Shown: piece after piece, positions 11,190-35,097 of the stretch | Layout: each line of letters opens with the position of its first letter | Position numbering within the stretch: position 1 is the first letter of the stretch | Position numbers and translations under genes: made by a program | Notes under the pieces: generated by a model | The model's input: only the letters and a program-made list of their open reading frames with translations | Told to the model about the DNA's origin: nothing | The model's database searches: none | From: Limisphaerales bacterium | Lineage (GTDB): Bacteria > Verrucomicrobiota > Verrucomicrobiia > Limisphaerales > BOG-1460 | Assembly: GCA_003159675.1 (NCBI GenBank) | Contig: PLQC01000176.1 | Span: 1-36,075 of the forward strand | DNA: 36,075 nt | Direction: 5' to 3'

Positions 11190-11500
11190 CCATGCAAATA
11201 GCAATGCACATCGTGCGATCTGCAGTTCCCGAGCAAGCGTGGCACGCAGGCTCCCTTCCAAGTCATTGAATTCTCCTTGCATCTCGGACTTGGTACGGCA
11301 CCCGCTTAAAGCGTGCGTGCTGGGTTCAGTCGAGAGACGGAGGATGCTCCGATAGGCTGCGGGTGCGGTCGCCAGCGTGCGGAAAAGATATGAGATTAAC
11401 GTTAAACGGGATTTTGTGGGGTTCAACTATTCGCAGAAACCCAGCGGCCTCGATGCGGCATCTGTTTCAATTCGCGACAGCAGGAAAGAGGAACTGGACA
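11190..11500. other. Intergenic gap before the beta-helix gene
   Basis: No gene is supported. A perfect 10-bp palindrome TTAACGTTAA lies at 11396-11405, and a GAGGA ribosome site lies just before the ATG at 11501. The gap is long for this tightly packed locus, so a separate promoter for the beta-helix gene is possible, but no -35/-10 pair is clear. Confidence 0.4.
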
Positions 11501-13309
11501 ATGAACGGTGCCGGTGCTGGTCTGAAACTGGCTCTCTGGATCGTGTTAAGTGCCCGGTCTCAGGCCGCAACGTGGTACGTGGACAGCGCGGCTACTGGGG
11601 CGCACAATGGAACCTCGTGGTCTAACGCCTGGACATCGTTCTCTCAGATCAGTGGCGTCTCCGCTGGCGACACGGTGAACATCAGCGGTGGGACCAGTGG
11701 GAGCAGCGAGACTTACTCCATCGGAGGATCGTTCCCTTTCGTGAACGGAGTGAACAACAGCAGCAGGACCGTCTATCAGATTGGACAGGACTCGGCGCAC
11801 GATGGAACCGCCATTTTAAATCTCGGAGGCAATGATATTATCGGAGGAAGTATCTACAACATAACCCTGAGTGGCAACGCAAACAGCGATGGTCTCAGGC
11901 ACTTTGCCTGCACAAATTACGGTTCGATTGCGAATCAGTGGAGCAATGGGTCGGTGAGCAACGCGCAGATTACTTATTGCACATTCTCGGGAAGCAGCGC
12001 AGGGGTGTTTACTTTCCACAATCTTGATAACCTAGAGTTTGACCACAACTTCATTTACAAGACTCCATACACTGCTGACTCAAGTTTGTTTAATGGGGTG
12101 TTCTCATATCAGAACGCGATCTCACGTAGCTTTGGATGGAATAAAGTTCATCACAACGAAATTCACCTACCAAGAGCGGCAGCTAACTCTGATATGGGGG
12201 ATGATTGCTTCAGCAGCATGGTTGCAATCGACTACTACAACAACACCATAATTTCTTATTACACTAACACATATCCCGGAGATTCAACCGCGCAGCACCA
12301 GGACGGAGTGCAGTCTCAGTGGAGTGACCATTGCAGGATTTACAACAACATATTTGATAACCTTGAGAACTCCGACATCTTCCCGGAAGGAATAGGCACT
12401 TATAGTCATCGGTATCTGCAAATCTTCAACAACATCATGATGTGTGATAGCAGCAGTCTTGCCGGTTCTCCGATGCGCGGAATTGATGGCGTGGGCAATA
12501 CGGGTTCGGGATCAATCTTTACAAACGTAGTCGTTGCCAATAACCTCCTTGTGAATCTTGGCACATCAACCAGCGGCGCTGCATATGGTATAAGACTTCA
12601 GGGGTATCCCAGCTCAAGTTTTGCAAATGGAAACTACACAGGAACAATCTGCGCCAACAATATCATTGTAGATGCCTACTGCGGATATGCTCTCAATCCC
12701 GAGGTCACTAGCGTCGGCAACTTCTCGGACACTGATGGGACGGTGAATGCCACAAACTTTGTGAGTTATACCGCTTTTGCAGGGACCAATAACAACTTCA
12801 ACCTGACAGCCAACTCCATGTTCCGGAACGCTGGAACCAATCTAACTGCTTTCGGCATTACCACCGACATTGCGGGAGACCCGAGGCCGGCGACAGGCAA
12901 CTGGGACGTTGGTCCGTATCAATATACAAGCGGCGGAGGGTCGAACGGCAGCAACCTTCTGCTCTCGGTCTCGCGCGGTTCCTATGACTTCGGCTCCTCA
13001 TCGACGAACTTGTCGATAACGAACAGGTTCCTCTTTGCACTGAGCAACCCGGGCAGCTCACGCATCATTGGCACGTCCAGTGTGGCGGCGCCGTTCTCCA
13101 TCGTGTTCGGCAACACCTACAGTCTGAGCCAGAGCCAAACGCAGTTAGTCAGTGTCTGCTTCAGCCCCTCTGTCATCAGTAATTACACAAGAACCGTTAC
13201 ATTCAGTGTCGCGGGCGGCGCCGGAACAAACGTGACGGTCACCGGCAGGGGGAGCGCGCCGTCCCAAGTGCCAAGCCCGCAGATGCTGTCTGTCAAACCA
13301 TCTCCGTAG
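11501..13309 (+). CDS. Secreted parallel beta-helix protein with C-terminal ASH-like domain
   Basis: Predicted to be exported: residues 1-22 look like a signal peptide (GLKLALWIVLSARSQA then ATWYVDS). Residues about 25-480 form a right-handed parallel beta-helix, seen as ladders rich in N, S, G and T with IYNNIF, NNIMMC, VVANNLLVN and ANNIIVD turns; the opening TWYVDSAATGAHNGTSWSNAW is typical of such proteins. Residues about 485-590 resemble an ASPM/SPD-2/Hydin or 'choice-of-anchor D' domain (YDFGSSSTNLS...FSIVFGNTYSL...TNVTVTGRGSAPS). The ATG at 11501 has AGAGGA upstream; a longer in-frame open stretch lacks a signal peptide. Beta-helix proteins in polysaccharide loci are often lyases or epimerases, but no catalytic set can be assigned here. 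Its DNA is visibly more AT-rich than the neighbouring genes. Confidence 0.75.
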   Translation: MNGAGAGLKLALWIVLSARSQAATWYVDSAATGAHNGTSWSNAWTSFSQISGVSAGDTVNISGGTSGSSETYSIGGSFPFVNGVNNSSRTVYQIGQDSAHDGTAILNLGGNDIIGGSIYNITLSGNANSDGLRHFACTNYGSIANQWSNGSVSNAQITYCTFSGSSAGVFTFHNLDNLEFDHNFIYKTPYTADSSLFNGVFSYQNAISRSFGWNKVHHNEIHLPRAAANSDMGDDCFSSMVAIDYYNNTIISYYTNTYPGDSTAQHQDGVQSQWSDHCRIYNNIFDNLENSDIFPEGIGTYSHRYLQIFNNIMMCDSSSLAGSPMRGIDGVGNTGSGSIFTNVVVANNLLVNLGTSTSGAAYGIRLQGYPSSSFANGNYTGTICANNIIVDAYCGYALNPEVTSVGNFSDTDGTVNATNFVSYTAFAGTNNNFNLTANSMFRNAGTNLTAFGITTDIAGDPRPATGNWDVGPYQYTSGGGSNGSNLLLSVSRGSYDFGSSSTNLSITNRFLFALSNPGSSRIIGTSSVAAPFSIVFGNTYSLSQSQTQLVSVCFSPSVISNYTRTVTFSVAGGAGTNVTVTGRGSAPSQVPSPQMLSVKPSP

Positions 13310-18278: not shown

Positions 18279-19880
18279 GTGACGGATCAAACACATATAA
18301 AACGAGACGAGATTGTCGTGGCCGTTCCCATTGCGGCTGCGGCCGGCGTTCAGGAGGCCAGTCCGCGGGACAGGGCATTCTTGAAAATCCATGCCGACGA
18401 GATCAAGGGGAGATCGGTGCGCGGCGGATTGGTCACCGTGACGGCGCAAGGGCTGAAATTTGTCTTGAATACGGGATCATCGATGATTCTGGCCCGGCTG
18501 TTGACTCACGAGGATTTTGGCCTGATGGGAATGGTTGTTGTCGTGACGGGATTCTTGAGCTTGTTCAGCGACCTCGGACTCAGCATGGCGACGATCCAGC
18601 GTGATGTGATTACACACGCACAGATTTCCACTCTTTTCTGGATCAACGTGGCTGTGGGCGCCACGCTTGCGCTTCTGGTCTCGGCGCTGGCTCCGGTGTT
18701 GGTGGTGTTTTATCATGAGCCTCGTTTGTTTTGGATGACCATTGCATTGGCCACGACGTTTCTGATCGGCAGTTTCGGGGCGCAACACTCCGCGCTCTTG
18801 ATGCGCAGCATGAGGTTTACAGCGCGGGCCAAAATCGAGATCGCGGCACTCGTCGTCAGCGTCGTCGTGGGTGTGAGCATGGCGGCGCTGGGCTGCGCCT
18901 ACTGGTCGCTGGTGGGGATGACAATCAGCGGAGGGCTCGTGGGTGTTGCCGGCTTATGGCTTGCCGTGCGATGGTTTCCGGGGCTGCCGCGCCGCGGCTG
19001 CGGGCTCCGGTCCATGTTCCATTTCGGGGGAACCGTGACACTGAATAACCTGGTGATGTACATCGGTTACAACGCGGAGAAAATTCTCCTGGGCCGCTAT
19101 TCCGGAGCAGACGTGTTGGGATTGTATGGGAGGGGCTATTCGCTCGTCAATTTGCCGACGACACAGTTGCATGCGGCGATGTTCAACGTAGCATTCCCGG
19201 CGCTCTCCCGGCTTCAGTCCGATCCTCCGCGCCTACGCAATGCTTTTCTGAAGGCTTACTCGATGGTCTTGTCCATGACCATTCCGGCTACGATCGCCTG
19301 TGTGCTGTTTGCCGAAGAGGTTGTCCGAATTGTGCTCGGGCCGAAATGGCTCGGGGCGATCCCGATTTTCAGGTTGCTGGCGCCGACGGTTCTGGTGTTT
19401 GGTTTGATCAATCCCTTTGGCTGGTTCCTCACCGCCGGCGGCTGGGTCGTGCGGAGCCTCAAGATCGCCCTGCTCATCGCGCCGTCTGTGATCCTCGGAA
19501 TCGCGCTGGGTCTCCGCTATGGGCCTCCGAATGGGGTGGGGGTTGCCATGGGCTACTCAACCGTGATGATGCTCCTGGCTTTTCCGGTCATCGCCTGGTC
19601 CAAACACGGAACCGGCATCACGTGGGGAAGTTTGTGGAACGCGATGAAGCAGCCGGTTCTTTCGGGTCTGGTCGCCGCCGCGGCTGGTCTGGCTTTCAAG
19701 GTCGCACTTGGCGGCAAGCTGCCGGCGTTTGTATGCGTGACCCTGGGGCTCGGTGTGACGTTTGGGGTGTATGCATGGATGCTCCTGATCGTGATGGGCC
19801 AAAAGCCGATCTATGCAGATTTGCTGAGGCAAGTGTTTGAACGGTTTCGCGCGAAAAAGGAAGGGGACAAATCTGCTTAA
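18279..19880 (+). CDS. Wzx-type polysaccharide flippase (MOP superfamily, WzxC-like)
   Basis: Moves the lipid-linked repeat unit from the cytoplasmic to the periplasmic side of the inner membrane. The 533-residue protein has about 14 hydrophobic segments after a hydrophilic N-terminus. It starts its core with KGRSVRGGLVTVTAQGLKFVLNTGSSMILARLLTHEDFGLMGM, and has FSDLGLSMATIQR, LNNLVMYIGYNAEKILLGR and LGLYGRGYSLVNLPT, all typical of the polysaccharide-transporter branch with the C-terminal polysaccharide biosynthesis domain. Start taken at GTG 18279; the N-terminal 40 residues are poorly conserved in this family, so a start further in is possible. A repeat element lies immediately upstream and another begins 4 bp after the stop. 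With the Wzy-like gene at 9846 it defines the locus as Wzx/Wzy-dependent. Confidence 0.9.
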   Translation: MTDQTHIKRDEIVVAVPIAAAAGVQEASPRDRAFLKIHADEIKGRSVRGGLVTVTAQGLKFVLNTGSSMILARLLTHEDFGLMGMVVVVTGFLSLFSDLGLSMATIQRDVITHAQISTLFWINVAVGATLALLVSALAPVLVVFYHEPRLFWMTIALATTFLIGSFGAQHSALLMRSMRFTARAKIEIAALVVSVVVGVSMAALGCAYWSLVGMTISGGLVGVAGLWLAVRWFPGLPRRGCGLRSMFHFGGTVTLNNLVMYIGYNAEKILLGRYSGADVLGLYGRGYSLVNLPTTQLHAAMFNVAFPALSRLQSDPPRLRNAFLKAYSMVLSMTIPATIACVLFAEEVVRIVLGPKWLGAIPIFRLLAPTVLVFGLINPFGWFLTAGGWVVRSLKIALLIAPSVILGIALGLRYGPPNGVGVAMGYSTVMMLLAFPVIAWSKHGTGITWGSLWNAMKQPVLSGLVAAAAGLAFKVALGGKLPAFVCVTLGLGVTFGVYAWMLLIVMGQKPIYADLLRQVFERFRAKKEGDKSA

Positions 19881-19884
19881 AACC

Positions 19885-20016
19885 CATCTCACAAATGCTT
19901 TCCGGTGGGGCGAGGCTACTGACGAGCCGGGATTATTCTGAAGACAGACGGCTCGCGCCTTCGCGGCGGCGAGAGCCGCTACGGCGGCGCAGGCGCGGGG
20001 ACGCTCGCCCCACCTT
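19885..20016. repeat. Inverted-repeat element family A, copy 1 (right end truncated)
   Basis: Begins CATCTCACAAAT...CCGGTGGGGCGAGGCT and ends GGACGCTCGCCCCACCTT. The same blocks, in the same order, occur in the reverse complement of 25590-25768: GGTGGGGCGAG, GACGAGCC, GGCTCGCGCC, the GGCGAGAGCCGCTACGGCGG run and CTCGCCCCACC. Copy 1 lacks the outer right arm and lacks an internal segment present in copy 2. It starts 4 bp after the flippase stop and ends 4 bp before the ATG of the next gene, so it fills the whole gap. Confidence 0.85.
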
Positions 20017-20020
20017 GACC

Positions 20021-20944
20021 ATGACTATTCCAAGATTAAGCATCGGCGTCCCGGTTTACAACGGACAGGACTACCTGCGGTTCGCATTGGACTCCATTGT
20101 GCGGCAGGATTACACCGATTTTGAACTCATCATTTCGGACAACGCTTCCACGGACGCCACCCAGGAGATCTGCCGTGGGTACGCCGCAAAGGATGGCCGC
20201 ATTCGCTATTATCGGAACGCAACCAACATCGGCGCCAGCGGCAACTATAATCGCGTGTTTGAGCTGGCGCGCGGCGCATTCTTCAAATGGGCGGCCCATG
20301 ATGATGTTCATCTGCCGGGATGCCTGAAGCGGTGCGTCGAGGTCTTTGACCAGGCGCCTCCCAACGTCGCGCTGGTTGCTCCAGCGTCGGAAATCATTGA
20401 CGAACATGGGAACACAACGGTGATATCTGTCGAATGCCTGGACACGAGATACCCGCGTGCTCATCAGCGTCTTGCGAACGTGCTGCAGCGGGTGTTTTGG
20501 GCGCCGGCGCAGTTCGGATTGTTTCGCTTCGAGACCCTGAGAAAGACGCGGTTGATCGATCCATTCTTTGCCTCGGACAACGTGTTGCTGGCCGAAATCG
20601 CCATGTTGGGAGAGATCTGGGAAATCCCTGAGGTGTTGTTTCAGCGAAGGCTTCATCCGGGCGTTTCCACCAACGTCAACAGGAACTGGCGCGAGCTTCA
20701 GGTTTGGTTTGCTCCCTCGCAAAGGGGTCTTAAGAGGTTCATCCCTCCCCCAATTCGACTCGGGTTAGAGTTCATGCAATCCATCGCCCGGATGCCGCTG
20801 CCGGCCCGGGAGCGCTTGTTATGCTACAAGGCCGTGTTCTGCGTCTGGTATCCGAGGCAAGGGCGCCGATTCGTCCAAGATTGCCGGAACAAGATCGCGA
20901 TCAGGACCAGGATGAAGAAGGCTTTGGGAAGGGTTGCAGAATGA
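20021..20944 (+). CDS. Glycosyltransferase family 2
   Basis: GT-A transferase of 307 residues: RLSIGVPVYNGQDYLRFAL, FELIISDNASTDATQEIC, NIGASGNYNRVFELARGAFFKWAAHDDVHLP with HDD replacing DxD, as is common in this subgroup, then FGLFRFETLRKTRLI and FASDNVLLAEIAMLG. The C-terminal third is basic and may bind the membrane surface. The ATG at 20021 is chosen; an open frame runs further upstream, but that part is translated repeat element, not protein. No ribosome site is visible because the repeat ends only 4 bp before the start. Its TGA overlaps the ATG of the next gene by 4 bp (ATGA), so the two genes are translationally coupled. Confidence 0.85.
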   Translation: MTIPRLSIGVPVYNGQDYLRFALDSIVRQDYTDFELIISDNASTDATQEICRGYAAKDGRIRYYRNATNIGASGNYNRVFELARGAFFKWAAHDDVHLPGCLKRCVEVFDQAPPNVALVAPASEIIDEHGNTTVISVECLDTRYPRAHQRLANVLQRVFWAPAQFGLFRFETLRKTRLIDPFFASDNVLLAEIAMLGEIWEIPEVLFQRRLHPGVSTNVNRNWRELQVWFAPSQRGLKRFIPPPIRLGLEFMQSIARMPLPARERLLCYKAVFCVWYPRQGRRFVQDCRNKIAIRTRMKKALGRVAE

Positions 20945-22014
20945 ACGAACAGCTCAGACTTAAAGTCGGCGAGTGGGTGGAAATACGAAGCAAGGAGGAA
21001 ATCCTGGCGACACTGGACAGGAACGGTCAACTGGAGGGGATGCCGTTCATGCCGCAGATGTTCCAGTATTGCGGCAAACGGCTTCGGGTTTACAAGCGCG
21101 CACACAAGACCTGTGACACGGTCTATCCCATTCGCGGGCGCCGGCTGTCGAACGGCGTGCATCTGGAGACTCGGTGTGACGGCCAGGCTTACGGAGGATG
21201 CCAGGCCAGTTGCCTGATCTTTTGGAAGGAAGCCTGGATGAAGCGGGTCGATGGCGGAAGGGCAGGGCGGCGTGGGGGGGGGGACGGGATGTCGCAACAG
21301 GGCGGCGCCGAAGCACGCGGCGGTTGCAGCGAACAGGACGTCTTGGCGGGGACCCGCCAACCCGGGCAACAGAATGAGCCGGATCCCGCGTACCGTTGCC
21401 AGGCGACCCAACTGCCAGAAGCGACGACGGCGCTGAACTGGTGGGATTTCCGGCAGTACATCGAGGATTACCTCTCCGGAAATGTCGGCATCTGGACGAT
21501 TCTGAAAGGCTCGGTTTATTCGAGCTACTACGGTGTCTGCGCCAGACGTGTGAGGTTGCGTCGGCTCATGGGACGGCTCTACGACACGTTCCGCCCGCTT
21601 TGGCGCGGTACGCTTTTCCCAAGAAGCAGCGGCACCCTGCCGGCCGGCATACCGACGCCGAGCTGCGATCTCAGCCTGCAGCCGGGCGAGCTGGTACGGG
21701 TGAAATCGCACCGGGAAATCCTCCGGACGCTGAATACAGAGAACAAGAACAGGGGTCTGTTTTTCGACGCCGAGATGGTGCCGTACTGCGGCGGCACCTA
21801 TCGCGTGTTGAAGCGGGTGGATCGGATACTCGATGAGAAAACGGGAAAGATGGTTCGCTTCAAGAAGCAGGCCGTCATCCTGGAAGGAGTGATCTGCCAG
21901 TCCCGTTACAGCGACTGCAGGATGTTTTGTCCACGGGGAATTTATTCGTATTGGCGCGAAATATGGCTGGAACGGATTTCGGCGGCTCCCGCTGAGCAGC
22001 AGAAAAGAGCTTAA
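20941..22014 (+). CDS. Protein of unknown function with two copies of a four-cysteine domain
   Basis: A 357-residue protein that I cannot assign to a named family. It contains the same domain twice. Copy 1 (about 8-104): GEWVEIRSKEEILATLDRNG, PFMPQMFQYCGKRLRVYKRA, then CDGQAYGGCQASCLIFWKEAW. Copy 2 (about 248-345): GELVRVKSHREILRTLN, FFDAEMVPYCGGTYRVLKRV, then CQSRYSDCRMFCPRGIYSYWREIW. Each has four aligned cysteines, C44/C79/C87/C91 and C283/C319/C326/C330 (YCG...C-x6-7-C-x3-C), plus an extra C58 in copy 1. A low-complexity G/R/Q linker and an aromatic region (WWDFRQYIEDYLSGN...) lie between. No signal peptide or membrane helix is seen. The cysteines suggest a metal or Fe-S site (inference). 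It is coupled by ATGA to the upstream glycosyltransferase, and its stop codon lies inside the left arm of a repeat element. Confidence 0.75.
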   Translation: MNEQLRLKVGEWVEIRSKEEILATLDRNGQLEGMPFMPQMFQYCGKRLRVYKRAHKTCDTVYPIRGRRLSNGVHLETRCDGQAYGGCQASCLIFWKEAWMKRVDGGRAGRRGGGDGMSQQGGAEARGGCSEQDVLAGTRQPGQQNEPDPAYRCQATQLPEATTALNWWDFRQYIEDYLSGNVGIWTILKGSVYSSYYGVCARRVRLRRLMGRLYDTFRPLWRGTLFPRSSGTLPAGIPTPSCDLSLQPGELVRVKSHREILRTLNTENKNRGLFFDAEMVPYCGGTYRVLKRVDRILDEKTGKMVRFKKQAVILEGVICQSRYSDCRMFCPRGIYSYWREIWLERISAAPAEQQKRA

Positions 22015-22185
22015 ACCACGGAGTTGCCGCGACGGGCGCGAGCACGGCGGGTGGACACGGATTAAAACGGATAAAAATATATCCGCGAATTTCACGAATT
22101 TCCGCGAATTGGAACCAAGACAAGTTCATTCGCGAACATTCCCGTAATTAGCGGATGAATTCTCTTTTCTACATTCGTGGTTTAA
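22011..22185. repeat. 175-bp element with 10-bp perfect terminal inverted repeats
   Basis: TTAAACCACG (22011-22020) and CGTGGTTTAA (22176-22185) are exact inverted repeats. The interior holds ACACGGATTAAAACGGATAA and a GCGAATTTCACGAATT segment, a style of AT-rich dispersed repeat. The first four bases include the TAA stop (22012-22014) of the cysteine-domain gene, so the left arm supplies that stop codon. Confidence 0.75.
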
Positions 22186-23564: not shown

Positions 23565-24590
23565 ATGCGCATTTGTGTAACGGGCAGTGATGGATATCTT
23601 GGATCATTATTGACCGCGGAGTTGCTCCGGCGCGGCCACGAGGTCATCGGTTTGGACACCGGGTATTACAAGGAAGGAACGCTGTACCGCTCGGGGTCGA
23701 TGGCACCGTTAACGATTGCCAAGGATCTGCGCAAGGTGGAAGCGGCGGACATCCAGGGCGTGGATGCCGTGGTGCACATGGCCGAGTTGTCCAACGATCC
23801 GCTGGGACAGTTGGCCCCTAACATCACGTATGACATCAACCACGCCGGGTCGGTCAGGCTCGCGGAGATGGCCCGCGAAGCCGGCGTGAAGCGATTCGTG
23901 TACATGTCCTCGTGCAGCGTGTATGGAGTGGCCGAAGGGGATTATGTGAGCGAACAATCACCGGTGAACCCTCAAACCGCGTACGCCATCTGCAAGACGC
24001 GCGTAGAGCATGATGTGAAACCACTGGCGAACGCCAGTTTCTCGCCCACCTTCATGAGAAACGCCACCGCTTACGGCGCATCGCCTCACATGCGGTTTGA
24101 CATCGTGCTGAACAACTTGGCCGGTCTCGCGTGGACGACAAAAGAGATCAAGATGACCAGCGACGGCACGCCCTGGCGCCCGCTCGTTCACGGTCTGGAC
24201 ATCGCCCGCGCCATAATGTGCGTTCTGGAAGCTCCACGCGAAGCGATCCATGGCGAGACCTTCAATGTTGGCGACACCTCGAACAACTACCGGGTGAAGG
24301 AAATTGCGGAAATCGTGGCGGCCGCGTTTCCGGGCTGCCGCCTCTCCTTCGGCGATCCAAGTCAGGACAACCGCAGCTACCGGGTGAACTTCGACAAGAT
24401 TCACAAGCATTTGCCGGACTTCAAGTGCGCCTGGGATGCGAAACGCGGGGCGAAGCAGCTTTACGACCTGTTCAAAAGAATCGATATGCCTGCGGAAGTC
24501 TTCCAACACCGCACGTTTACCCGGCTCAAACAGCTCGAGTACCTGATTCGCACCAGGCAGATCGACGAGAAGTTCTTTTGGACGGAATAG
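23565..24590 (+). CDS. NAD(P)-dependent epimerase/dehydratase (extended SDR)
   Basis: Makes or remodels a nucleotide sugar in the cytoplasm. The 341-residue protein has the dinucleotide-binding TGSDGYLG (6-13), an acidic strand-2 end (GLDTGYY), HMAELSNDPLG, the catalytic set YMSSCSVYG (Ser) and Y140-x3-K144 (YAICK), and the substrate region RNATAYGASPHMRFDIVLNNL. Near the C-terminus, GETFNVGDTSNNYRVKEIAE is typical of sugar-nucleotide SDRs. The N(D)PLG and RFDIVLNNL features match a subgroup often found in polysaccharide loci. ATG 23565 follows an A-rich leader (AAAAGAAAGCAAAC). Whether it is a 4-epimerase, a 4,6-dehydratase or a reductase cannot be told by eye. Confidence 0.85.
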   Translation: MRICVTGSDGYLGSLLTAELLRRGHEVIGLDTGYYKEGTLYRSGSMAPLTIAKDLRKVEAADIQGVDAVVHMAELSNDPLGQLAPNITYDINHAGSVRLAEMAREAGVKRFVYMSSCSVYGVAEGDYVSEQSPVNPQTAYAICKTRVEHDVKPLANASFSPTFMRNATAYGASPHMRFDIVLNNLAGLAWTTKEIKMTSDGTPWRPLVHGLDIARAIMCVLEAPREAIHGETFNVGDTSNNYRVKEIAEIVAAAFPGCRLSFGDPSQDNRSYRVNFDKIHKHLPDFKCAWDAKRGAKQLYDLFKRIDMPAEVFQHRTFTRLKQLEYLIRTRQIDEKFFWTE

Positions 24591-25845: not shown

Positions 25846-27603
25846 GTGAATAAAACCGGTTGCCTTAAAATCGGAGGGATCATTGTCTGCGTCCTCCTGC
25901 TGAACATCGTTTGGTTCCATTACGTGCGGAGCGAACACACGATCTATTCCTGGGACTATGACGGTTATTGGGCCATTTGCGGAAGACTCGAGCGCACGTG
26001 TGCGACTGCTCCGGTGCAGTTCGTCCGTGATGTGCTGGGATCCATTCGGAACGATGAATACACTGCCGAACCTGTGGTGCCGGCGGCCATCGCGATCTCG
26101 TTGGGCGAGAACCTGCACCTGTTCTCTTTCTCGCGCGCCGCTTACGTCATGGCCAACGGCAATTTCTATCTGGTGCCGGCCTTGCTGCTCCTGATCTGGC
26201 TGGTTTCCGCCCTGCGCACTTCCCGGTTCAGTCCCGGCGTCGATGCGATCCCGGCCTCCGCGTGGCTGGCCGGCGCCCTGATGGCCCTGCTCACGCCCGC
26301 ACTATGGCTCCCGCTGTACCGCGGATATCCCGATGGCGGCGGCCTGGTTTTTTGTTTCCTGATAACGGCATTGTTTGTCCGCTGGCGTCAGCAACGGCGC
26401 CGGGCACTCGATCATCTGCTCACATGGTCAGCGATCGTGATATTGCTGGTCGGACTCGTCTTTTTCCGGCGTTGGTACTTGTACTGGATCATCTGGTTTT
26501 GGATCGCTTCCGGGTTGGTTTGTCTCTGGGACGCCTGGGAGGAGTGGCGGCGCGGATCACGAGGGTGGGGGATGCTCCGCAACACAGCCGAGCTGTGCGG
26601 CGGCGCCCTCGCGTTCGGCGCATTAATGTTTGCGGTTTCGCCCCATTTTGTTCGCGAACTGGTGTCCTACAACTATGCCGACCGGTATTCGGTGTTCCAC
26701 GTGTCGAAATCCTTCGGACAGTTCCTTGCCAGCACGTTTTCGGCTCCCGGCGTGGTCGGTATTTTGCTTTTCGTCGGCGGGCTCGCGTATGGATTTTTCA
26801 AACGCGATCTTCGGAAGTTCGCCGTCTTTCAGATCGTTCAACTGGTTGGAGTCGTGATTCATTTCGGGCGAACCCAGGATTTCGGCCCGCATCACCACTA
26901 TCTCCTGCTCGCGCTGATGCTGCCGCTGGCCACGCTGTTTGTCGCCGAGTTGCTCCGGAGCTTTGGATGGATTACGGCCGCGTGCCTGCTCCCGATCGGG
27001 CTCCTGGGTTACACGCTGTCATTCACATCGCTGTTGCACGGTGCGTCGCGGGTGTTGCTGCCTCTCACCGGCGCCGTGGACGGCGCACCACTGCGCCGGG
27101 GAGACATCGCTGAATGGCGGCGCCTGGGCACAACCATGGACGAGATCCTCAGCGCGCGGGGACAAGGCATGATCTACGTGCTGGGCAACAGCCTCACGAT
27201 CAATTCCTCGGACTTTCTCTCGATCGGCCGCTCGCTGAATGAAGGGTTCATCACCCCGAAGTTCGTCTATTATTCGCACGACATTGACAAGCGTGACGGC
27301 TTTCCGGTTGATCTGCTGCGAGCAAGATACGTGATCGTCGCCGACCCCGTTCAAGTCCAGTTCGACCCGGCGGAACAGCAGGTCGTCGCCGCGCCGGAGC
27401 GTGAGTTTCTGGAGGGCTCGGGCATCGCCGGCGCATTTGAGAAGTTGCCTTGCCAGTTTCTCCTGGACGGAGGGGTGAAGGTGTACATTTACCAGAAAAC
27501 TCGGGAGATCAGTTCGCAGGAACTTCGGCAGCTTTGCGACGAGTTGCGAAAAGCCCACCCGGATCGACCCTATATTTACGAGCCTCCCGCCGGAGTCATG
27601 TGA
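25846..27603 (+). CDS. GT-C-like integral membrane protein (possible lipid-linked-sugar glycosyltransferase)
   Basis: A 585-residue protein with a first membrane helix (IIVCVLLLNIVWFHYV), a first outer loop carrying acidic residues (HTIYSWDYDGYWAICGRLE), about 10 more hydrophobic segments to residue 400, and a soluble C-terminal domain (about 410-585, with MIYVLGNSLTINSSDFLSIG, RARYVIVADPVQVQF and GVKVYIYQKT). This layout, with acidic residues in the first outer loop and a C-terminal outer domain, is that of GT-C enzymes such as the PMT/ArnT/GT39 types, which take the sugar from a polyprenyl-phosphate donor. No family could be named with certainty. The GTG at 25846 is used. It follows the GtrB-like gene and repeat copy 2. 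Confidence 0.6.
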   Translation: MNKTGCLKIGGIIVCVLLLNIVWFHYVRSEHTIYSWDYDGYWAICGRLERTCATAPVQFVRDVLGSIRNDEYTAEPVVPAAIAISLGENLHLFSFSRAAYVMANGNFYLVPALLLLIWLVSALRTSRFSPGVDAIPASAWLAGALMALLTPALWLPLYRGYPDGGGLVFCFLITALFVRWRQQRRRALDHLLTWSAIVILLVGLVFFRRWYLYWIIWFWIASGLVCLWDAWEEWRRGSRGWGMLRNTAELCGGALAFGALMFAVSPHFVRELVSYNYADRYSVFHVSKSFGQFLASTFSAPGVVGILLFVGGLAYGFFKRDLRKFAVFQIVQLVGVVIHFGRTQDFGPHHHYLLLALMLPLATLFVAELLRSFGWITAACLLPIGLLGYTLSFTSLLHGASRVLLPLTGAVDGAPLRRGDIAEWRRLGTTMDEILSARGQGMIYVLGNSLTINSSDFLSIGRSLNEGFITPKFVYYSHDIDKRDGFPVDLLRARYVIVADPVQVQFDPAEQQVVAAPEREFLEGSGIAGAFEKLPCQFLLDGGVKVYIYQKTREISSQELRQLCDELRKAHPDRPYIYEPPAGVM

Positions 27604-27685: not shown

Positions 27686-29302
27686 GTGCTATCGAACTGG
27701 ATGCACCATCAGTCTCACCTGTGCCTTTTGGCGGCCGGCATGGTTTCCGTCGCCATGCACACGCCGGGAAACGCGGCGCCGGCCTATCCGCTGAAGAGCA
27801 GCGCCAATGGCCGTTTTCTGGTCGATCAGAACAACACCCCGACCTTGATCACGGGCGATTCTCCCCATGCGTTGATGGTGAATCTGTCGGAAGCGGATGC
27901 CGTGACGTTTTTAGCGGACCGCGAAGCGTATGGGTTCAACACGGTCTGCATTTATCTGCTGTGCGGCGCGGCGACCGGCGGCCGGACGAATTGCAGCACG
28001 ATTGACGGAATGCTGCCCTTCACGAACACACTCCCGTCCAAGAGTTCGTATGATCTTTCCACCCCGAACGAGGCGTATTTCGCCCACGTGGATCGCATCG
28101 TGAATCTGGCGGCGCAAGAGGGGCTTCAAGTCATGCTCGATCCCGCCGAAACGAGCGGTTTTCTGACGACACTGCTGGACAATGGCACCGCCAGATGCCG
28201 CGCTTACGGCCAGTATCTGGGCAATCGCTATCAGAACTTCCCCAACATCCTTTGGTATAACGGGAATGATTTTCAAAACTGGGCGAACACAAATGACGAT
28301 GCCGTTGTGCGGGCCGTGGCGCTGGGGATCCAGGACAAGGACACGAACCATATTCACACCATCGAATTGGACTATTACACGAGCGACTCCCTGGATGACC
28401 CTTCGTGGGGGCCCATCATCAGCCTGAACGCCGCCTACAGCTACTATCCGAGCTACGCGCAGGTGCTGGAGGCCAATACCGATTCGAGTTCCACGCCAGT
28501 TTTCCTGGCTGAAGCCAACTACGAATTCGAGAACCTTTCGGGTCCGCTCACCACGGCGCCGATTCTCCGCAAGCAGGAGTATTGGACGCTGTTGAGCGGG
28601 GCAGCCGGGCAACTGTATGGCAACCACTATACGTGGCAGTTTGCAAGCGGCTGGCAAACCAACCTGGATACCCCGGGCGCGGTCCAGATCAGCTATCTCA
28701 AGGCGCTGTTCGAACCGCGAGCCTGGTACAACCTGGCTCAGGACACGAATCATCTGGTGGTGACTGCCGGGTATGGGACCTTTGCGACCAATGGAACTGT
28801 AGATGCCAATGACTATGCGACGGCGGCCCGCACAGCCGATGGGACTCTGGTGATGGTGTACCTGCCGGCCCTCCGGACGCTGACCGTGGACATGTCGAAG
28901 CTGAGCGGCCCTGCTGTGGCGCAGTGGTATGATCCGGCCGGCGGGAGTTACGTTCAGATTTCGGGTTCACCGTTCACCAACAGCGGCGTGAGGAACTTCA
29001 CACCGCCCGGCAAAAACAGCGACGGAGATGGGGGCTGGGTTCTGCTGTTGGAGACTCTCAGCACCCCGACACCGACTGTGTTGAGTTTCACATCGGCCGG
29101 CCCGGGCACCAACGGCTTTGTTGTGAGTTTCAACACGCTGCCAGGGTTGAAATATGAGCTCCAGGCCGTCAGCAATTCGTTGAGCGGCGCTTGGTTTCCG
29201 CTGGTGACAAACATACTCGGAACCGGCGGACCGGTTCAGATCACCGACACCAACACGCTCGGTCGGATTGGGTGGTTCTACCGCGTGAAGACTGGAACAT
29301 GA
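27686..29302 (+). CDS. Secreted DUF4038/apiosidase-like putative glycoside hydrolase, paralogue 1
   Basis: A 538-residue exported protein. The N-terminal hydrophobic stretch (LCLLAAGMVSVAM...GNAAPAYP) is a signal peptide. The region about 32-375 is a DUF4038-type TIM barrel: YPLKSSANGRFLVDQ, GDSPHALMVNLSEADAVTFLADREAYGFNTV, NILWYNGNDFQNW and FLAEANYEFEN with an acid (Glu276) at the expected strand end, followed by YWTLLSGAAGQLYGNHYTWQF. Residues about 376-455 match the collagen-binding-like PF12904 partner domain (DANDYATAARTADGTLVMVYLP...AQWYDPAGG). The tail 460-538 is a verrucomicrobial-style module ending GRIGWFYRVKTGT. Start GTG 27686 or ATG 27701; neither has a clear ribosome site. The stop overlaps the next start (ATGA). 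A role in trimming the polysaccharide or foreign glycans is inference. Confidence 0.8.
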   Translation: MLSNWMHHQSHLCLLAAGMVSVAMHTPGNAAPAYPLKSSANGRFLVDQNNTPTLITGDSPHALMVNLSEADAVTFLADREAYGFNTVCIYLLCGAATGGRTNCSTIDGMLPFTNTLPSKSSYDLSTPNEAYFAHVDRIVNLAAQEGLQVMLDPAETSGFLTTLLDNGTARCRAYGQYLGNRYQNFPNILWYNGNDFQNWANTNDDAVVRAVALGIQDKDTNHIHTIELDYYTSDSLDDPSWGPIISLNAAYSYYPSYAQVLEANTDSSSTPVFLAEANYEFENLSGPLTTAPILRKQEYWTLLSGAAGQLYGNHYTWQFASGWQTNLDTPGAVQISYLKALFEPRAWYNLAQDTNHLVVTAGYGTFATNGTVDANDYATAARTADGTLVMVYLPALRTLTVDMSKLSGPAVAQWYDPAGGSYVQISGSPFTNSGVRNFTPPGKNSDGDGGWVLLLETLSTPTPTVLSFTSAGPGTNGFVVSFNTLPGLKYELQAVSNSLSGAWFPLVTNILGTGGPVQITDTNTLGRIGWFYRVKTGT

Positions 29303-31710
29303 AACGATTGCAGAGAATCCCAGCATGGAAATGCGTGAGCAACCGGCCGCAACTGTGCCGGCTGGCTGCAGGCGCGATGCTCTGTTTGTTCGTGGCCGCC
29401 CAAGCGGCCGCCGGTCCGGCGTATCCGTTGAAACAGAGCCCGAACGGACGTTATCTGGTCGATCAGAAGAATGTCCCCTTCATGATCGTGGGTGATTCCC
29501 CTCAGGCGATGGTGGTGAACATCAGCGAAGCTGACGCGGCGGTGTTTTTCGCCAATCGAAACGCCCGTGGTTTCAATACCATGTGCATTGATGCGATCTG
29601 CAACCCCTACACCGCAGGGCGCACCAACGCCAGCACCATGAGCGGCATACTACCCTTCACGAACTACATCCCGTCGACCGGTTTCTACGATCTAACCACG
29701 CCGAATGAAGTTTATTTCGCGCGCGTGGATCAAATCCTCACTCTCGCGGCGAAGCAGGGGCTGCAAGTGATGCTCGACCCGATTGAGACGGGCGGTTGGC
29801 TGACGACGATGCTTGCCAATGGCACCGGCAACTGCCGGGCATACGGCCAGTACCTGGGCGACCGCTATAAGAATTTCCCCAATATCATCTGGTTTAGCGG
29901 CAACGATTTTCAGACGTGGACCACGGCAAGCGACGACGCAGTGGTGACGTCCGTCGCGCTTGGGATTAAGGACAGGGATACGAACCACATTCACACGATT
30001 GAATTGAATTACCAGGTCAGCAGCTCGTTGGACGACCCCAACTGGGCGCCGATCATCGGGCTCAATGCGGCTTATACCTACTTTCCGACGTATGCGGAGG
30101 TGCTCCATGCCTACAACCAGTCGAGTTCCATGCCCGTGTTCATGACGGAGGCGAACTATGAATTCGAAGATCTTCTGCACAACCTGGGCACGTTGACGCC
30201 GCAGATTCTGCGGCAGCAGGAATATTGGACGATGTTGAGCGGGGCAGCCGGGCAGCTCTATGGCAACCACTACACGTGGCAGTTCACAAACGGCTGGCAG
30301 AGTCACCTCGATACACCGGGTGCGTTCCAAATGGGCCACCTGAAGACACTCTTTCAGTCCCGTGCCTGGTATAATCTGATTCCGGACACGAATCACACGG
30401 TGCTGACTGCCGGGTACGGGACCTTCGCGACCAATGGTCCTGTCAATGCCAACGACTATGCGACCGCGGCATACACGCCGGATGGGACGCTGGTGATGGC
30501 GTACTTGCCTACCCTGCGACCGGTCACCGTGGACATGTCGAATTTCAGCGGACTGGCAACCGCGCAGTGGTATGATCCGGTCAACGGGACTTATCTTCCG
30601 AGTAAGGGAGCGCCGTTCACCAACAGCGGCACGCGCACTTTCACGCCGCCGGGCAACAATATCGGAGGAGGCAGCGACTGGGTCCTGGTGCTGGCCTCAC
30701 CTCCTGTGCCAGGAACCTACAAAGGTCTGTTCTCTGAAACGAATCAGGTCCGACAACAGCAGAGCTCAGGGTCCATCACGACGTCTGTAACCTCGAAGGG
30801 CAAGTACACCGGCCGTCTCCAGATGGGGACCGACACCTACAGCTTCGCAGGCGCGCTGAGCCCGGAGGGGCACGTCACAAACACCATTCCCCGAACCAAA
30901 ACGGGTCCGCTGACGCTGGATCTTGGTTTCGGGACCGGCGATGAATCCGATGAAATCATCGGGCAAATCACGAATAGCAATTGGGTGGCGATGCTGAGGG
31001 GAGATCGCGCCGTGTTCAACGCGAAGACCAACCCCGCTCCCTACACAAACCGGTTCACCTTGTTCATCGCCGGGCAGCCCGGAGATCCCTCGGTGCCGGC
31101 CGGGGACGGATTTGGCATCCTGCGGCTGAACGCCGATGGAACAGGGACCTTTGCCGGAACCCTCGCCAGCGGCACGCCAGTGAGCCAGGGCGTTTCAGTG
31201 TCGAAAGATGGCCTGTGGCCGCTCTATGTTCCGCTTTTTGCGGGCACTGGTTCGCTCTGGGGCTGGCTCGCGTTTACCAATGATACCGAGAGCGACATCG
31301 ATGGAATGCCCGCATGGATCAAACCGGCCAATGCGCTGTCGCGGTATTTCCCGGTTGGCTTTACCAACGACTTCCAGGTGTTCGGTTCGGTTTATGTGAG
31401 GCCCGAGCGTCCCACGAACCATATCCTGGACCTGACGAACGCTTCCGTGGAGTTTAGCGGCGGCAATCTTGTTGCGGATTTCACCAATGACGTGGCGCTC
31501 GGATTGAACAGCCAGGTCACCAACCTGAGCGGCAGCAACCGGTTTTCGATGAGCTTCTCGCTCTCTACTGGCACCTTTAGAGGCCATGCGGCGGATCCCG
31601 TTTCGGGCAAGACGTATGCCTTCGCCGGCGCAGTACTGCAAAAAATGATCGAAGGCCACGGGTTTCTCCTCGGAACTAACCAAAGTAGCCGGGTTGTCAT
31701 TAGTCCGTAA
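29299..31710 (+). CDS. Secreted DUF4038/apiosidase-like putative glycoside hydrolase, paralogue 2
   Basis: An 803-residue paralogue of the preceding protein, coupled to it by a 4-bp ATGA overlap. Signal peptide at about 20-37 (LCRLAAGAMLCLFVAAQAAAG). The barrel repeats the same landmarks: YPLKQSPNGRYLVDQKN, GDSPQAMVVNISEADAAVFF, NIIWFSGNDFQTW, FMTEANYEFED (Glu284), YWTMLSGAAGQLYGNHYTWQF, then the PF12904-like domain to about 465. Residues 473-803 differ entirely: GTYKGLFSETNQVRQQQSSG, FAGALSPEGHVTNTIPR, RAVFNAKTNPAPYTNRFTL, GDGFGILRLNADGTGTFAGTL and LWPLYVPLFAGTGSLWGWL, a module I associate with large secreted verrucomicrobial proteins but cannot name. The ATG at 29299 fits the signal peptide; longer in-frame readings run inside paralogue 1. 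Confidence 0.8.
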   Translation: MKRLQRIPAWKCVSNRPQLCRLAAGAMLCLFVAAQAAAGPAYPLKQSPNGRYLVDQKNVPFMIVGDSPQAMVVNISEADAAVFFANRNARGFNTMCIDAICNPYTAGRTNASTMSGILPFTNYIPSTGFYDLTTPNEVYFARVDQILTLAAKQGLQVMLDPIETGGWLTTMLANGTGNCRAYGQYLGDRYKNFPNIIWFSGNDFQTWTTASDDAVVTSVALGIKDRDTNHIHTIELNYQVSSSLDDPNWAPIIGLNAAYTYFPTYAEVLHAYNQSSSMPVFMTEANYEFEDLLHNLGTLTPQILRQQEYWTMLSGAAGQLYGNHYTWQFTNGWQSHLDTPGAFQMGHLKTLFQSRAWYNLIPDTNHTVLTAGYGTFATNGPVNANDYATAAYTPDGTLVMAYLPTLRPVTVDMSNFSGLATAQWYDPVNGTYLPSKGAPFTNSGTRTFTPPGNNIGGGSDWVLVLASPPVPGTYKGLFSETNQVRQQQSSGSITTSVTSKGKYTGRLQMGTDTYSFAGALSPEGHVTNTIPRTKTGPLTLDLGFGTGDESDEIIGQITNSNWVAMLRGDRAVFNAKTNPAPYTNRFTLFIAGQPGDPSVPAGDGFGILRLNADGTGTFAGTLASGTPVSQGVSVSKDGLWPLYVPLFAGTGSLWGWLAFTNDTESDIDGMPAWIKPANALSRYFPVGFTNDFQVFGSVYVRPERPTNHILDLTNASVEFSGGNLVADFTNDVALGLNSQVTNLSGSNRFSMSFSLSTGTFRGHAADPVSGKTYAFAGAVLQKMIEGHGFLLGTNQSSRVVISP
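29968..30123 (+). repeat. 156-bp tract identical to 32537-32692
   Basis: Within the barrel-coding part of paralogue 2, bases 29968-30123 are identical to 32537-32692 of paralogue 3. The flanks differ at many third positions and some amino acids, so the identity is a block rather than uniform. The encoded segment runs from KDRDTNHIHTIELNY through PTYAEVLHAYNQS. Confidence 0.85.
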
Positions 31711-31873: not shown

Positions 31874-34561
31874 ATGAAAGGTTTCGTCATCAATCGAGGT
31901 TGCAGTCGGGAAGGCTCGCCGAACTCCGGCGTCTGGCTTCCTCTGCTCCTGTTGTCGGCGATGATGGTGAACGTTGCCGGCGCCCCCGTTTATCCATTGA
32001 AACAGAGCGCAAGCGGACGTTTTCTGGTCGATCAAAGCAATACGCCCTGCATGATCGTCGGCGATTCTCCCCAGGCCCTGGTCGTGAACATCAGCGAAGC
32101 GGACGCTGCCGAGTACTTCACCAATCGAAATGCCCGCGGTTTTAATTCCTTGTGGATCGACCTACTCTGCACGACGTACACGGGAGGGCGCACCAACGGC
32201 AGCACGATCGACGGCACGCTGCCCTTCACAGGCACGATCTCCGGGACCGGCTACTACGATCTATCCACGACGAACGAGGCGTATTTTGCGCACGTGGACC
32301 GCATCCTCAACCTGGCGGCGCAGCAAGGATTGCAGGTCATGCTGGACCCGATCGAAACGGGTGGCTGGCTGACGACGATGCTTGCGAACGGTCCCGCCAA
32401 TTGCCGTGCTTACGGGCAATATCTGGGCGACCGCTATAAGAATGTCCCCAACATCATCTGGTTCCACGGCAACGATTATCAGGGCTGGCAGGATCCCAAC
32501 AACGACGCGGTGGTCACGGCCGTGGCGCTTGGGATCAAGGACAGGGATACGAACCACATTCACACGATTGAATTGAATTACCAGGTCAGCAGCTCGTTGG
32601 ACGACCCCAACTGGGCGCCGATCATCGGGCTCAATGCGGCTTATACCTACTTTCCGACGTATGCGGAGGTGCTCCATGCCTACAACCAGTCGGGTTCCAT
32701 GCCCGTGTTCATGGCGGAGGCCAACTATGAATTTGAAGATCTTCTGCAAAACCTGGGCACCTTGACGCCGCAGATTCTGCGGCTGCAGGAATATTGGACG
32801 ATGTTGAGCGGAGCGGGCGGGCAACTGTATGGCAACCACTACACGTGGCAGTTTGCAAGCGGTTGGCAGACCAACCTGGATACACCGGGTGCGATCCAGA
32901 TGGGATACCTCAAGACGCTGTTCGGGTCGCGCGCCTGGTATAACCTGATTCCGGACAGGAATCACACGGTGCTGACCGCCGGGTATGGGACCTTCGCGAC
33001 CAATGGTCCTGTCAACGCCAATGACTATGCGACGGCGGCACGCACCGCCGACGGGGCGCTCGTGATGGCGTACATGCCGACCCTTCGAACCTTCACCGTG
33101 GACATGTCGCAGTTGAGCGGTTCCGCGACGGCACGGTGGTATGATCCCGCAAGCGGGGATTATGTTCAGATCTCCGGTTCGCCGTTGACCAACAGCGGCA
33201 CGCGCACTTTCACGCCGCCGGGCAACAACATCGGAGGAGGCAGCGACTGGGTATTGGTCCTGGAGACAAACCCCCCGACAGGCCCTCTCGATCCATCGTT
33301 TCCATCGTTTGTTCAGCAGAACTATGCAACGCCGCAGACACCGCAAACGCAGGTGTCGGCCTCCTATACCACCCCGCAAATCGCCGGCAATGCGAATATT
33401 GTCGCCATCGGCTGGATCGATGGCACGGCCAGCATCAGCACGGTCGTGGACTCGACAGGCAACACGTACCAGGCCGCAGTGCCCGCCCAACGAGGCACTG
33501 GCATCAGCCAGGCCATTTACTATGCATCAAACATCAAAGGCGGCAGCAACACCGTCACGGTGACGTTCAACCAGCCTGCCAGCTACGTCGATTTGCGCGT
33601 CGTTGAATACTCGGGACTCAGTCCAGTCAATCCCTTCGATGCCGGAGCATCGGCTGCGGGAAACAGTTCGGCCCCGAACAGCGGACCTGTGACGATCCAA
33701 GGCCCCAACGAACTCATTTTCGGCGCGGGCGTGACTTCCAACCTTTACACGGCCGCCGGCGCCGGTTTCACGCTGCGCGTCATCACCTCTCCCACAGGTG
33801 ACATTGCCGAGGACGAGCTCGCGGCCTCCCCAGGCACGTACAAAGCGACCGCGACACTCAACGGTTCCGGCGCCTGGCTGATGCAGGCGGCGGCGTTCAA
33901 ACCGGCGGCCACGATCCCCGATGCTCCGCAGCTGCGCATTTTTCTGACCGGCTTCACGCTTCAACAATGTTCGACCCTGGCATCAACGAATTGGACTACG
34001 GCGACCAACGCGGTTCAGATGGCCAGGAACCAGTACCAGGCTGCCGTCTCGCCGCTGGCCGCCCACCAGTATTTTCGTTTGGAATCCCCTTATGGCGCGG
34101 CGCCGCCCGCACTGCACATCTCGATCACCGCCTCGAATGCCGCAGCCGTGACATGGCCTGTGACGGGAGTGGTGGCATGGCCGGCAAGCGCCACGGGATT
34201 TTCGCTGCAACATAATTCGAATCTTGGGACGACGAATTGGGTCGGTGTCACGAACGCGGCCTGGACGGTCGGGAGCGAACGCTGGGTATTTGTTTCGCCG
34301 CTGGCAGGCCAGCAGTTCTACCGTCTGAGGCTCTTCATCCCGCCCGCGACCCCGCTGTTGCAGATCGCCCTGACCTCCACGAACACGGCCGTGGTGGTGT
34401 GGACGACGAACTTACCGGGCTTCACGCTGCAACAGAATTCGGATCTGACCACCACCAACTGGGTAAACGCGACAAACGTGAGCCAGGTTGTCGGCAACGA
34501 AAACCAGGTCACCATTTCGCCGCTGGTCGGTCAGCGGTTTTATCGTCTGAAGCATCCTTGA
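31874..34561 (+). CDS. Secreted DUF4038/apiosidase-like putative glycoside hydrolase, paralogue 3
   Basis: An 895-residue third paralogue. The ATG at 31874 gives a signal peptide with core VWLPLLLLSAMMVNVAGAP; upstream in-frame starts would bury it. Barrel landmarks are YPLKQSASGRFLVDQ, NIIWFHGNDYQGW, FMAEANYEFED (Glu282) and YWTMLSGAGGQLYGNHYTWQF, then the PF12904-like domain to about 465. The C-terminus is again different: a beta-sandwich-like domain (about 471-680: VAIGWIDGTASISTVVDSTGN, SNTVTVTFNQPASYVDLRVVEYSG), then three copies of a short module (about 685-740, 745-820, 827-895) with the pattern GFxLQxxSxLxTTNWxxxTNxxxxxxxxxxVSPLxxxxFYRL. The first copy is shortened: LRIFLTGFTLQQ lacks the TSTNTAVVVWTT piece of copy 3. 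It lies 163 bp after paralogue 2. Confidence 0.8.
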   Translation: MKGFVINRGCSREGSPNSGVWLPLLLLSAMMVNVAGAPVYPLKQSASGRFLVDQSNTPCMIVGDSPQALVVNISEADAAEYFTNRNARGFNSLWIDLLCTTYTGGRTNGSTIDGTLPFTGTISGTGYYDLSTTNEAYFAHVDRILNLAAQQGLQVMLDPIETGGWLTTMLANGPANCRAYGQYLGDRYKNVPNIIWFHGNDYQGWQDPNNDAVVTAVALGIKDRDTNHIHTIELNYQVSSSLDDPNWAPIIGLNAAYTYFPTYAEVLHAYNQSGSMPVFMAEANYEFEDLLQNLGTLTPQILRLQEYWTMLSGAGGQLYGNHYTWQFASGWQTNLDTPGAIQMGYLKTLFGSRAWYNLIPDRNHTVLTAGYGTFATNGPVNANDYATAARTADGALVMAYMPTLRTFTVDMSQLSGSATARWYDPASGDYVQISGSPLTNSGTRTFTPPGNNIGGGSDWVLVLETNPPTGPLDPSFPSFVQQNYATPQTPQTQVSASYTTPQIAGNANIVAIGWIDGTASISTVVDSTGNTYQAAVPAQRGTGISQAIYYASNIKGGSNTVTVTFNQPASYVDLRVVEYSGLSPVNPFDAGASAAGNSSAPNSGPVTIQGPNELIFGAGVTSNLYTAAGAGFTLRVITSPTGDIAEDELAASPGTYKATATLNGSGAWLMQAAAFKPAATIPDAPQLRIFLTGFTLQQCSTLASTNWTTATNAVQMARNQYQAAVSPLAAHQYFRLESPYGAAPPALHISITASNAAAVTWPVTGVVAWPASATGFSLQHNSNLGTTNWVGVTNAAWTVGSERWVFVSPLAGQQFYRLRLFIPPATPLLQIALTSTNTAVVVWTTNLPGFTLQQNSDLTTTNWVNATNVSQVVGNENQVTISPLVGQRFYRLKHP
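32537..32692 (+). repeat. 156-bp tract identical to 29968-30123
   Basis: Second copy of the identical tract, inside paralogue 3. It is bounded on the left by a T/C difference (gggatC versus gggatT before AAGGACAGG) and on the right by a G/A difference after AACCAGTCG. Confidence 0.85.
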
Positions 34562-34569
34562 TTCGCCCC

Positions 34570-35097
34570 ATGATATTCACAAAAACAGAGCTCGACGGAG
34601 CCTACCTGGTGGATTTGGAACGACGGGAAGATTCCCGTGGGTTTTTTGCCCGGACTTTTTGCGTTCGCGAGTTTGAAGAGCAGGGTCTCGAGTCTGAGTT
34701 TGTGCAATGCAGCATTTCGCTGAACCGCCAGCGGGGCACAGTGCGAGGATTGCATTACCAACTCCCCCCGGCTTGCGAGGCCAAATTGGTGCGGTGCACG
34801 GCGGGTGCGGTCCATGACGTTATCGTTGATCTCCGGCCGGACTCGCCAACCTATCTGCATCACATCGCGGTGGAACTCACCGCCCGGAACCGGCGCGCGC
34901 TGTACGTGCCGGAAATGTTCGCCCACGGCTTCCAGGTTCTTGAGGACGAGACGGAAGTGTTCTACCATATCGGCGCGTTTTATGCCCCGGAGCAGTCCAC
35001 CGGAATCCGTTACAACGACCCGAAACTCGGAATCCACTGGCCGCTACCCGTGACCGCGATATCCGTAAAGGACCGGAGCTGGCCACTATTTAGTTGA
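34570..35097 (+). CDS. rmlC: dTDP-4-dehydrorhamnose 3,5-epimerase (RmlC family)
   Basis: Cupin enzyme that epimerises C3 and C5 of dTDP-4-dehydro-6-deoxyglucose on the way to dTDP-L-rhamnose. The 175-residue protein, a normal family length, has DSRGFFARTF (21-30), QCSISLNRQRGTVRGLHYQ with the catalytic His62, KLVRCTAGAVHDVIVDLRPDSPTY, LYVPEMFAHGF (His119) and GIRYNDPKLGIHWP followed by SVKDRSWP (Asp168). A tyrosine at 138 (GAFYAPEQ) fits the catalytic acid position. The ATG at 34570 lies 8 bp after the preceding stop. RmlA, RmlB and RmlD are not in the window, so they would have to be elsewhere; alternatively the protein serves another dTDP- or CDP-sugar 3,5-epimerisation together with the SDR at 23565. 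Confidence 0.85.
   Translation: MIFTKTELDGAYLVDLERREDSRGFFARTFCVREFEEQGLESEFVQCSISLNRQRGTVRGLHYQLPPACEAKLVRCTAGAVHDVIVDLRPDSPTYLHHIAVELTARNRRALYVPEMFAHGFQVLEDETEVFYHIGAFYAPEQSTGIRYNDPKLGIHWPLPVTAISVKDRSWPLFS

Follow-up and report, generated by a model that had tools for sequence, protein, structure and literature searches.

A 36,075-nucleotide stretch of a Limisphaerales genome (hereafter the window) encodes, at positions 20941 to 22014 of the forward strand, a protein of 357 residues in which two cysteine-rich SH3-like domains are arranged in tandem. Its membership of a sugar pathway centered on a cytidylyltransferase-like nucleotidyltransferase (hereafter the transferase) and PIG-L was well supported. 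The family is real, conserved and unnamed; its fold class is known, and its association with the pathway is apparently undescribed. Duplication, conservation, fold class, and both genomic and genome-wide association were established computationally. Our preferred reading, still a tentative one, is that the protein acts as a soluble, zinc-stabilised accessory protein of one NDP-sugar/surface-polysaccharide pathway, the metal and the function both being putative.

Open reading frame calling and translation returned the same frame and limits as the original prediction. The gene starts within the stop codon of a GT2 glycosyltransferase gene, as had been read from the sequence, its ATG at 20941 sharing ATGA with the TGA of that gene, and a GGGAAGGG stretch lies upstream of this ATG. 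The proposed internal duplication was recovered far above chance between residues 1-110 and 241-357 (blastp, E = 2e-15, 31% identity). Searching the window genome with an N-domain profile retrieved the C domain of the protein (2.9e-15), the C-domain profile retrieved the N domain (8.6e-14), and the gene was present there as a single copy. The domains and the annotated genes of the locus were as follows.

18279..19880, forward strand: Wzx-type flippase of the MOP family (Pfam Polysacc_synt_3, E 1.3e-77)
19895..20944, forward strand: GT2 glycosyltransferase, in ATGA overlap with the gene studied (Pfam Glycos_transf_2, E 1.1e-30)
20956..21249, forward strand: N-terminal SH3-like domain, residues 6-103, with C44, C58, H74, C79, C87 and C91 (from alignment, AlphaFold and Foldseek)
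21250..21666, forward strand: middle region, residues 104-242 (from conservation, secondary structure and confidence, and hydropathy)
21667..21978, forward strand: C-terminal SH3-like domain, residues 243-346, with C283, C319, C326 (variable) and C330 (from alignment and profile match to the N domain)
23565..24590, forward strand: NAD-dependent SDR epimerase/dehydratase, a member of the conserved gene set (Pfam Epimerase, E 1.2e-46)
34237..35097, forward strand: homologue of RfbC-type dTDP-4-dehydrorhamnose 3,5-epimerase, also a member of the conserved set (Pfam dTDP_sugar_isom, E 1.9e-63), the Pfam domain beginning at residue 116

The middle region comprised a low-confidence linker (about residues 105-125), C129, C153-Q154 and two helices (184-201 and 204-221), and almost all family members had a hydropathy here below that usual for transmembrane segments. 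Across 145 genomes of the phylum the N-domain profile recognised no stand-alone single-domain protein, and every match to it among 200 genomes from another family lay within an open frame of at least 349 residues. A 423-residue open frame runs antisense to the gene (window 20824-22095, reverse strand), and similar antisense frames recur in homologues; this frame probably reflects the conserved sense gene and is unlikely to be a gene itself.

In genomes sampled at one per species, at least 312 stretches encoded relatives, the best 80 of which were kept for study, and the family is nevertheless absent from Pfam and NCBIfam. Homologues measured 320 to 440 residues in 87 of the 88 examined, the exception being one truncated copy. 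By record title they spread over at least eight bacterial phyla (Acidobacteriota, Verrucomicrobiota, Nitrospirota, Pseudomonadota, Thermodesulfobacteriota, Myxococcota, Fibrobacterota and Rokubacteria), many carriers being soil and freshwater bacteria. An actinomycete was among the carriers as well. Six plasmid-collection records (Mesorhizobium, Bosea, Nonomuraea) encoded relatives, and no viral relatives were found in IMG/VR or phage records. Phyla were mixed in the gene tree (15 label changes for eight groups, with a minimum possible of seven), a pattern that fits horizontal transfer without proving it.

That the domain could not be connected to a named family held up: the protein reached neither Pfam nor NCBIfam cut-offs, PHROGs returned nothing significant, and no significant solved-structure relative was retrieved by sequence search. 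When 79 and 76 homologues were scanned against Pfam and NCBIfam, the matches were only weak and scattered. The fold, treated as unknown in the original prediction, appears instead to be SH3-like. AlphaFold modeled the protein from 76 sequences with a pLDDT of 90.7 and a pTM of 0.88 (pLDDT 86 for the N domain alone). With the whole model, the best Foldseek matches were the nitrile hydratase beta subunit and other SH3-like proteins (E about 3e-3 or worse), and with the N domain alone the best was the MZM-REP structure of Mind bomb 1 (4xi6; probability 1.00, E 0.013, TMq 0.52), all Foldseek matches having E > 1e-3. Pfam SH3_15 was weakly matched in 19 of 79 members (E 2.2e-4 for the best homologue). 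The agreement of AlphaFold, Foldseek and these weak Pfam matches indicates that both predicted domains are SH3-like barrels; membership of SH3_15 is not claimed, because the family cut-off was not reached. Foldseek matches were mostly non-catalytic modules (Mind bomb repeats, CAP-Gly, ribosomal L21e, PsaE), with KOW domains also among them. SH3-like barrels are also found within enzymes, and the preference for an adaptor over an enzyme is a matter of judgement, based on the predicted fold class.

The proposed alignment of cysteines 44/79/87/91 in the first half with 283/319/326/330 in the second holds. Across 87 homologues, C44, C58, C79, C87, C91, C153, C319 and C330 were conserved at 100%, H74 at 99%, C283 at 93%, C129 at 90% and C326 at 60%. 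Most of the cysteine set first proposed was retained, C326 being the one that fell short, and that set had lacked C58, C129 and the middle-region C153, as well as H74. For the second copy, the idea of a strict site with four cysteines was not supported: here neighboring cysteines stand in for the fourth one, C283 is replaced by threonine in six homologues, and some homologues have only three cysteines in this domain. C322/C323 occurred in 9 of 29 rows without C326 and in 0 of 47 with it (Fisher p = 7e-5, uncorrected for ancestry). On account of this replacement the C326 position was read as a metal-ligand position, one that may be able to move as in structural zinc sites. Predicted strands pair residues 47-59 with 65-78 and 286-297 with 304-314, and with a simple strand register this pairing would bring C44 next to C79, and C283 next to C319, at the hairpin base. 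The eight invariant cysteines form the conserved set expected of a metal-binding cysteine domain, and metal binding by both domains is plausible, the predicted strand order being compatible with it.

Five invariant cysteines in one domain, and the SH3-like barrels found in the electron-transport complex proteins PsaE and PetP, could also be read as signs of a redox or Fe-S protein that supplies electrons for the deoxygenation or oxidation of a sugar. We consider this improbable, as the sequence contains no CxxCxxC-type Fe-S motif, the fourth position of the C domain is interchangeable as for structural zinc, and no ferredoxin-type partner was seen among the recurrent neighbors scanned. Nothing in the analysis favored Fe-S or redox chemistry over zinc.

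Gene neighborhoods were obtained by gene calling and clustering followed by family scans of representatives, for 87 loci, several of which end at contig ends. The family did recur in polysaccharide loci, as foreseen, but its coupling specifically to a glycosyltransferase was not borne out: GT2 was not constant, and the recurrent partners were the Wzx flippase and the cytidylyltransferase/PIG-L pair. Wzx and the transferase were found in 54 loci each, PIG-L in 53 (51 together with the transferase), RfbC in 44, SDR in 35, a C-methyltransferase (PF08421/PF08484) in 31, DUF4910 in 25 and a DRL oxidoreductase in 19. The most frequent immediate neighbor was Wzx (32 of 81 loci), PIG-L holding this place in 18 of 81. 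The transferase scored 225 bits where the glucose-1-phosphate cytidylyltransferase family has a cut-off of 300; it is a relative and not a proven member, and PIG-L retained the AHSDD and HQDH motifs. The C-methyltransferase, often accompanied by DUF4910, and the DRL oxidoreductase had a single locus in common; their near-exclusive occurrence on the same transferase/PIG-L core suggests two variants of one sugar.

A divergent copy (44% identity to its nearest match) was found beside a weak WecG match in genome G254 (C1:252000-271000), a 19-kb stretch without the transferase pathway. A group of Bradyrhizobium loci had been considered a separate UGDH/WecG context without the pathway, an idea that was dropped since locus L134 holds both in one 17-kb stretch, with the homologue some 10 kb away from the complete gene set.

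Within the window, no transferase, PIG-L, C-methyltransferase or DUF4910 gene was found. All four were present in the window genome on contig C133 (56-70 kb) and matched cluster members at 57-75% identity. This second polysaccharide stretch of the genome (about 54.7-70.1 kb) also encodes a UGDH homologue; contigs C123 and C133 are not claimed to be joined, DUF4910 lying 10 kb inside C133. The window itself displayed two overlapping frames at 27686-31710 inside the polysaccharide locus, each with Apiosidase-like (PF13204) and Collagen_bind_2 domains, and long frames without a Pfam match at E 0.001 (25846-27603, 11363-13309, 9846-11189 and 35189-35980).

Association with the transferase extended to whole genomes. 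Among 200 genomes of one family, the protein was found in 11 and a high-scoring transferase in 10 (at least 397 bits, against 213 for the next score), with both in nine, that is 9/11 and 9/10 (p = 5e-13, ignoring shared ancestry). Among 58 relatives of the window genome, four carried the protein, the window genome included; a transferase at 62-76% identity was present in three of these four and in none of the others (Fisher p = 1.3e-4, likewise ignoring shared ancestry), where the best transferase reached at most 45% identity. G037, the remaining genome of the four, has a completeness of 76%. Of the 17 genomes or records in which the locus was without a transferase, 14 carried one at another place. 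Exceptions were G254 and G377, with the protein and no transferase (the G377 contig being only 5.3 kb), and G238, with the reverse. This near one-to-one co-occurrence, even with the biosynthetic gene elsewhere in the genome, and the position of the gene inside operons beside PIG-L and Wzx in several phyla make it highly improbable that the protein is a regulator or nucleic-acid binding protein with a KOW/L21e-like barrel and a mere passenger of polysaccharide islands, even though L21e and KOW domains are among the Foldseek matches and a phylum-mixed tree is compatible with transfer.

The same tight pathway linkage would also be expected of an enzyme of the pathway, in which a catalytic metal or nucleophilic cysteine of the N domain would modify a sugar or lipid-linked sugar while the degenerate C domain would be structural. 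C58, H74 and C153, conserved in all or almost all homologues, lack a counterpart in the C domain, and the adjacent PIG-L and C-methyltransferase genes suggest sugar tailoring. We regard such an enzyme as doubtful, given that Pfam, NCBIfam and structure-sequence searches found no enzyme-family similarity and that most fold matches are non-catalytic. The invariant polar residues of the N domain nonetheless exceed what a pure scaffold would need, and weigh against the accessory reading. A broader proposal, which we hold to be rather unlikely, is that the family is an undescribed metalloenzyme or an obligate subunit of a complex, restricted in either case to an uncharacterised nucleotide-sugar pathway that makes an unknown surface-polysaccharide sugar in at least eight phyla. 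This pathway would consist of the cytidylyltransferase-like enzyme, PIG-L, RfbC and SDR, together with either the C-methyltransferase and DUF4910 or the DRL oxidoreductase.

Returning to the accessory protein, we infer zinc, partner binding and a hand-over role. Structural zinc would most likely sit at the base of the long hairpin of each barrel, held by C44, C79, C87 and C91 in the first and by C283, C319, C330 and a variable fourth ligand in the second. A second site, through which the middle region would be anchored to the first barrel, may be made up of C58, C129 and C153. Partner binding would most likely fall to both barrels together with the helical hairpin, the candidate partners being the flippase, the PIG-L deacetylase or a glycosyltransferase, or else the lipid-linked glycan, and the protein could in this way help to pass the modified sugar from synthesis to export. 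The family marks a widespread sugar pathway that has apparently gone unstudied and that has loci in Bradyrhizobium, Mesorhizobium, Nitrospira and Acidobacteria.

Literature searches found no papers on the PIG-L/cytidylyltransferase combination and gave no link to bradyrhizose biosynthesis, which had been considered as the pathway of the protein. The closest described neighborhoods are those of DUF4910 in the CA_C2195 study, which links DUF4910 to a sugar nucleotidyltransferase, an SDR, a SAM-dependent methylase and an exporter in surface-carbohydrate loci, including loci of Nitrospirae and Alphaproteobacteria (PMC4000134). The same gene types recur in the loci of the present family, and a modified surface carbohydrate was already proposed there for these partly overlapping neighborhoods; the passages that a term search retrieved from that study do not mention a protein of this kind. 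The constant partners of the present family were the transferase and PIG-L, whereas DUF4910 was found in 25 of 87 loci.

By fold, the protein falls in the same SH3-like class as the nitrile hydratase beta subunit, PsaE and PetP. It differs from nitrile hydratase beta in having no alpha-subunit gene among its recurrent neighbors and no significant sequence match. The nearest likeness is to the Mind bomb SH3 repeat (Pfam PF18346, SH3_15; PDB 4xi6 and 4tse), which also consists of tandem SH3-like barrels. The predicted barrel resembles this repeat in structure (Foldseek probability 1.00 and TMq 0.52, though with E 0.013), while the protein scored 12.4 bits (E 0.2) against SH3_15, under the gathering cut-off of 24 bits. 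Unlike the Mind bomb repeat, it carries conserved cysteines and a middle region, and it belongs to a bacterial polysaccharide context.
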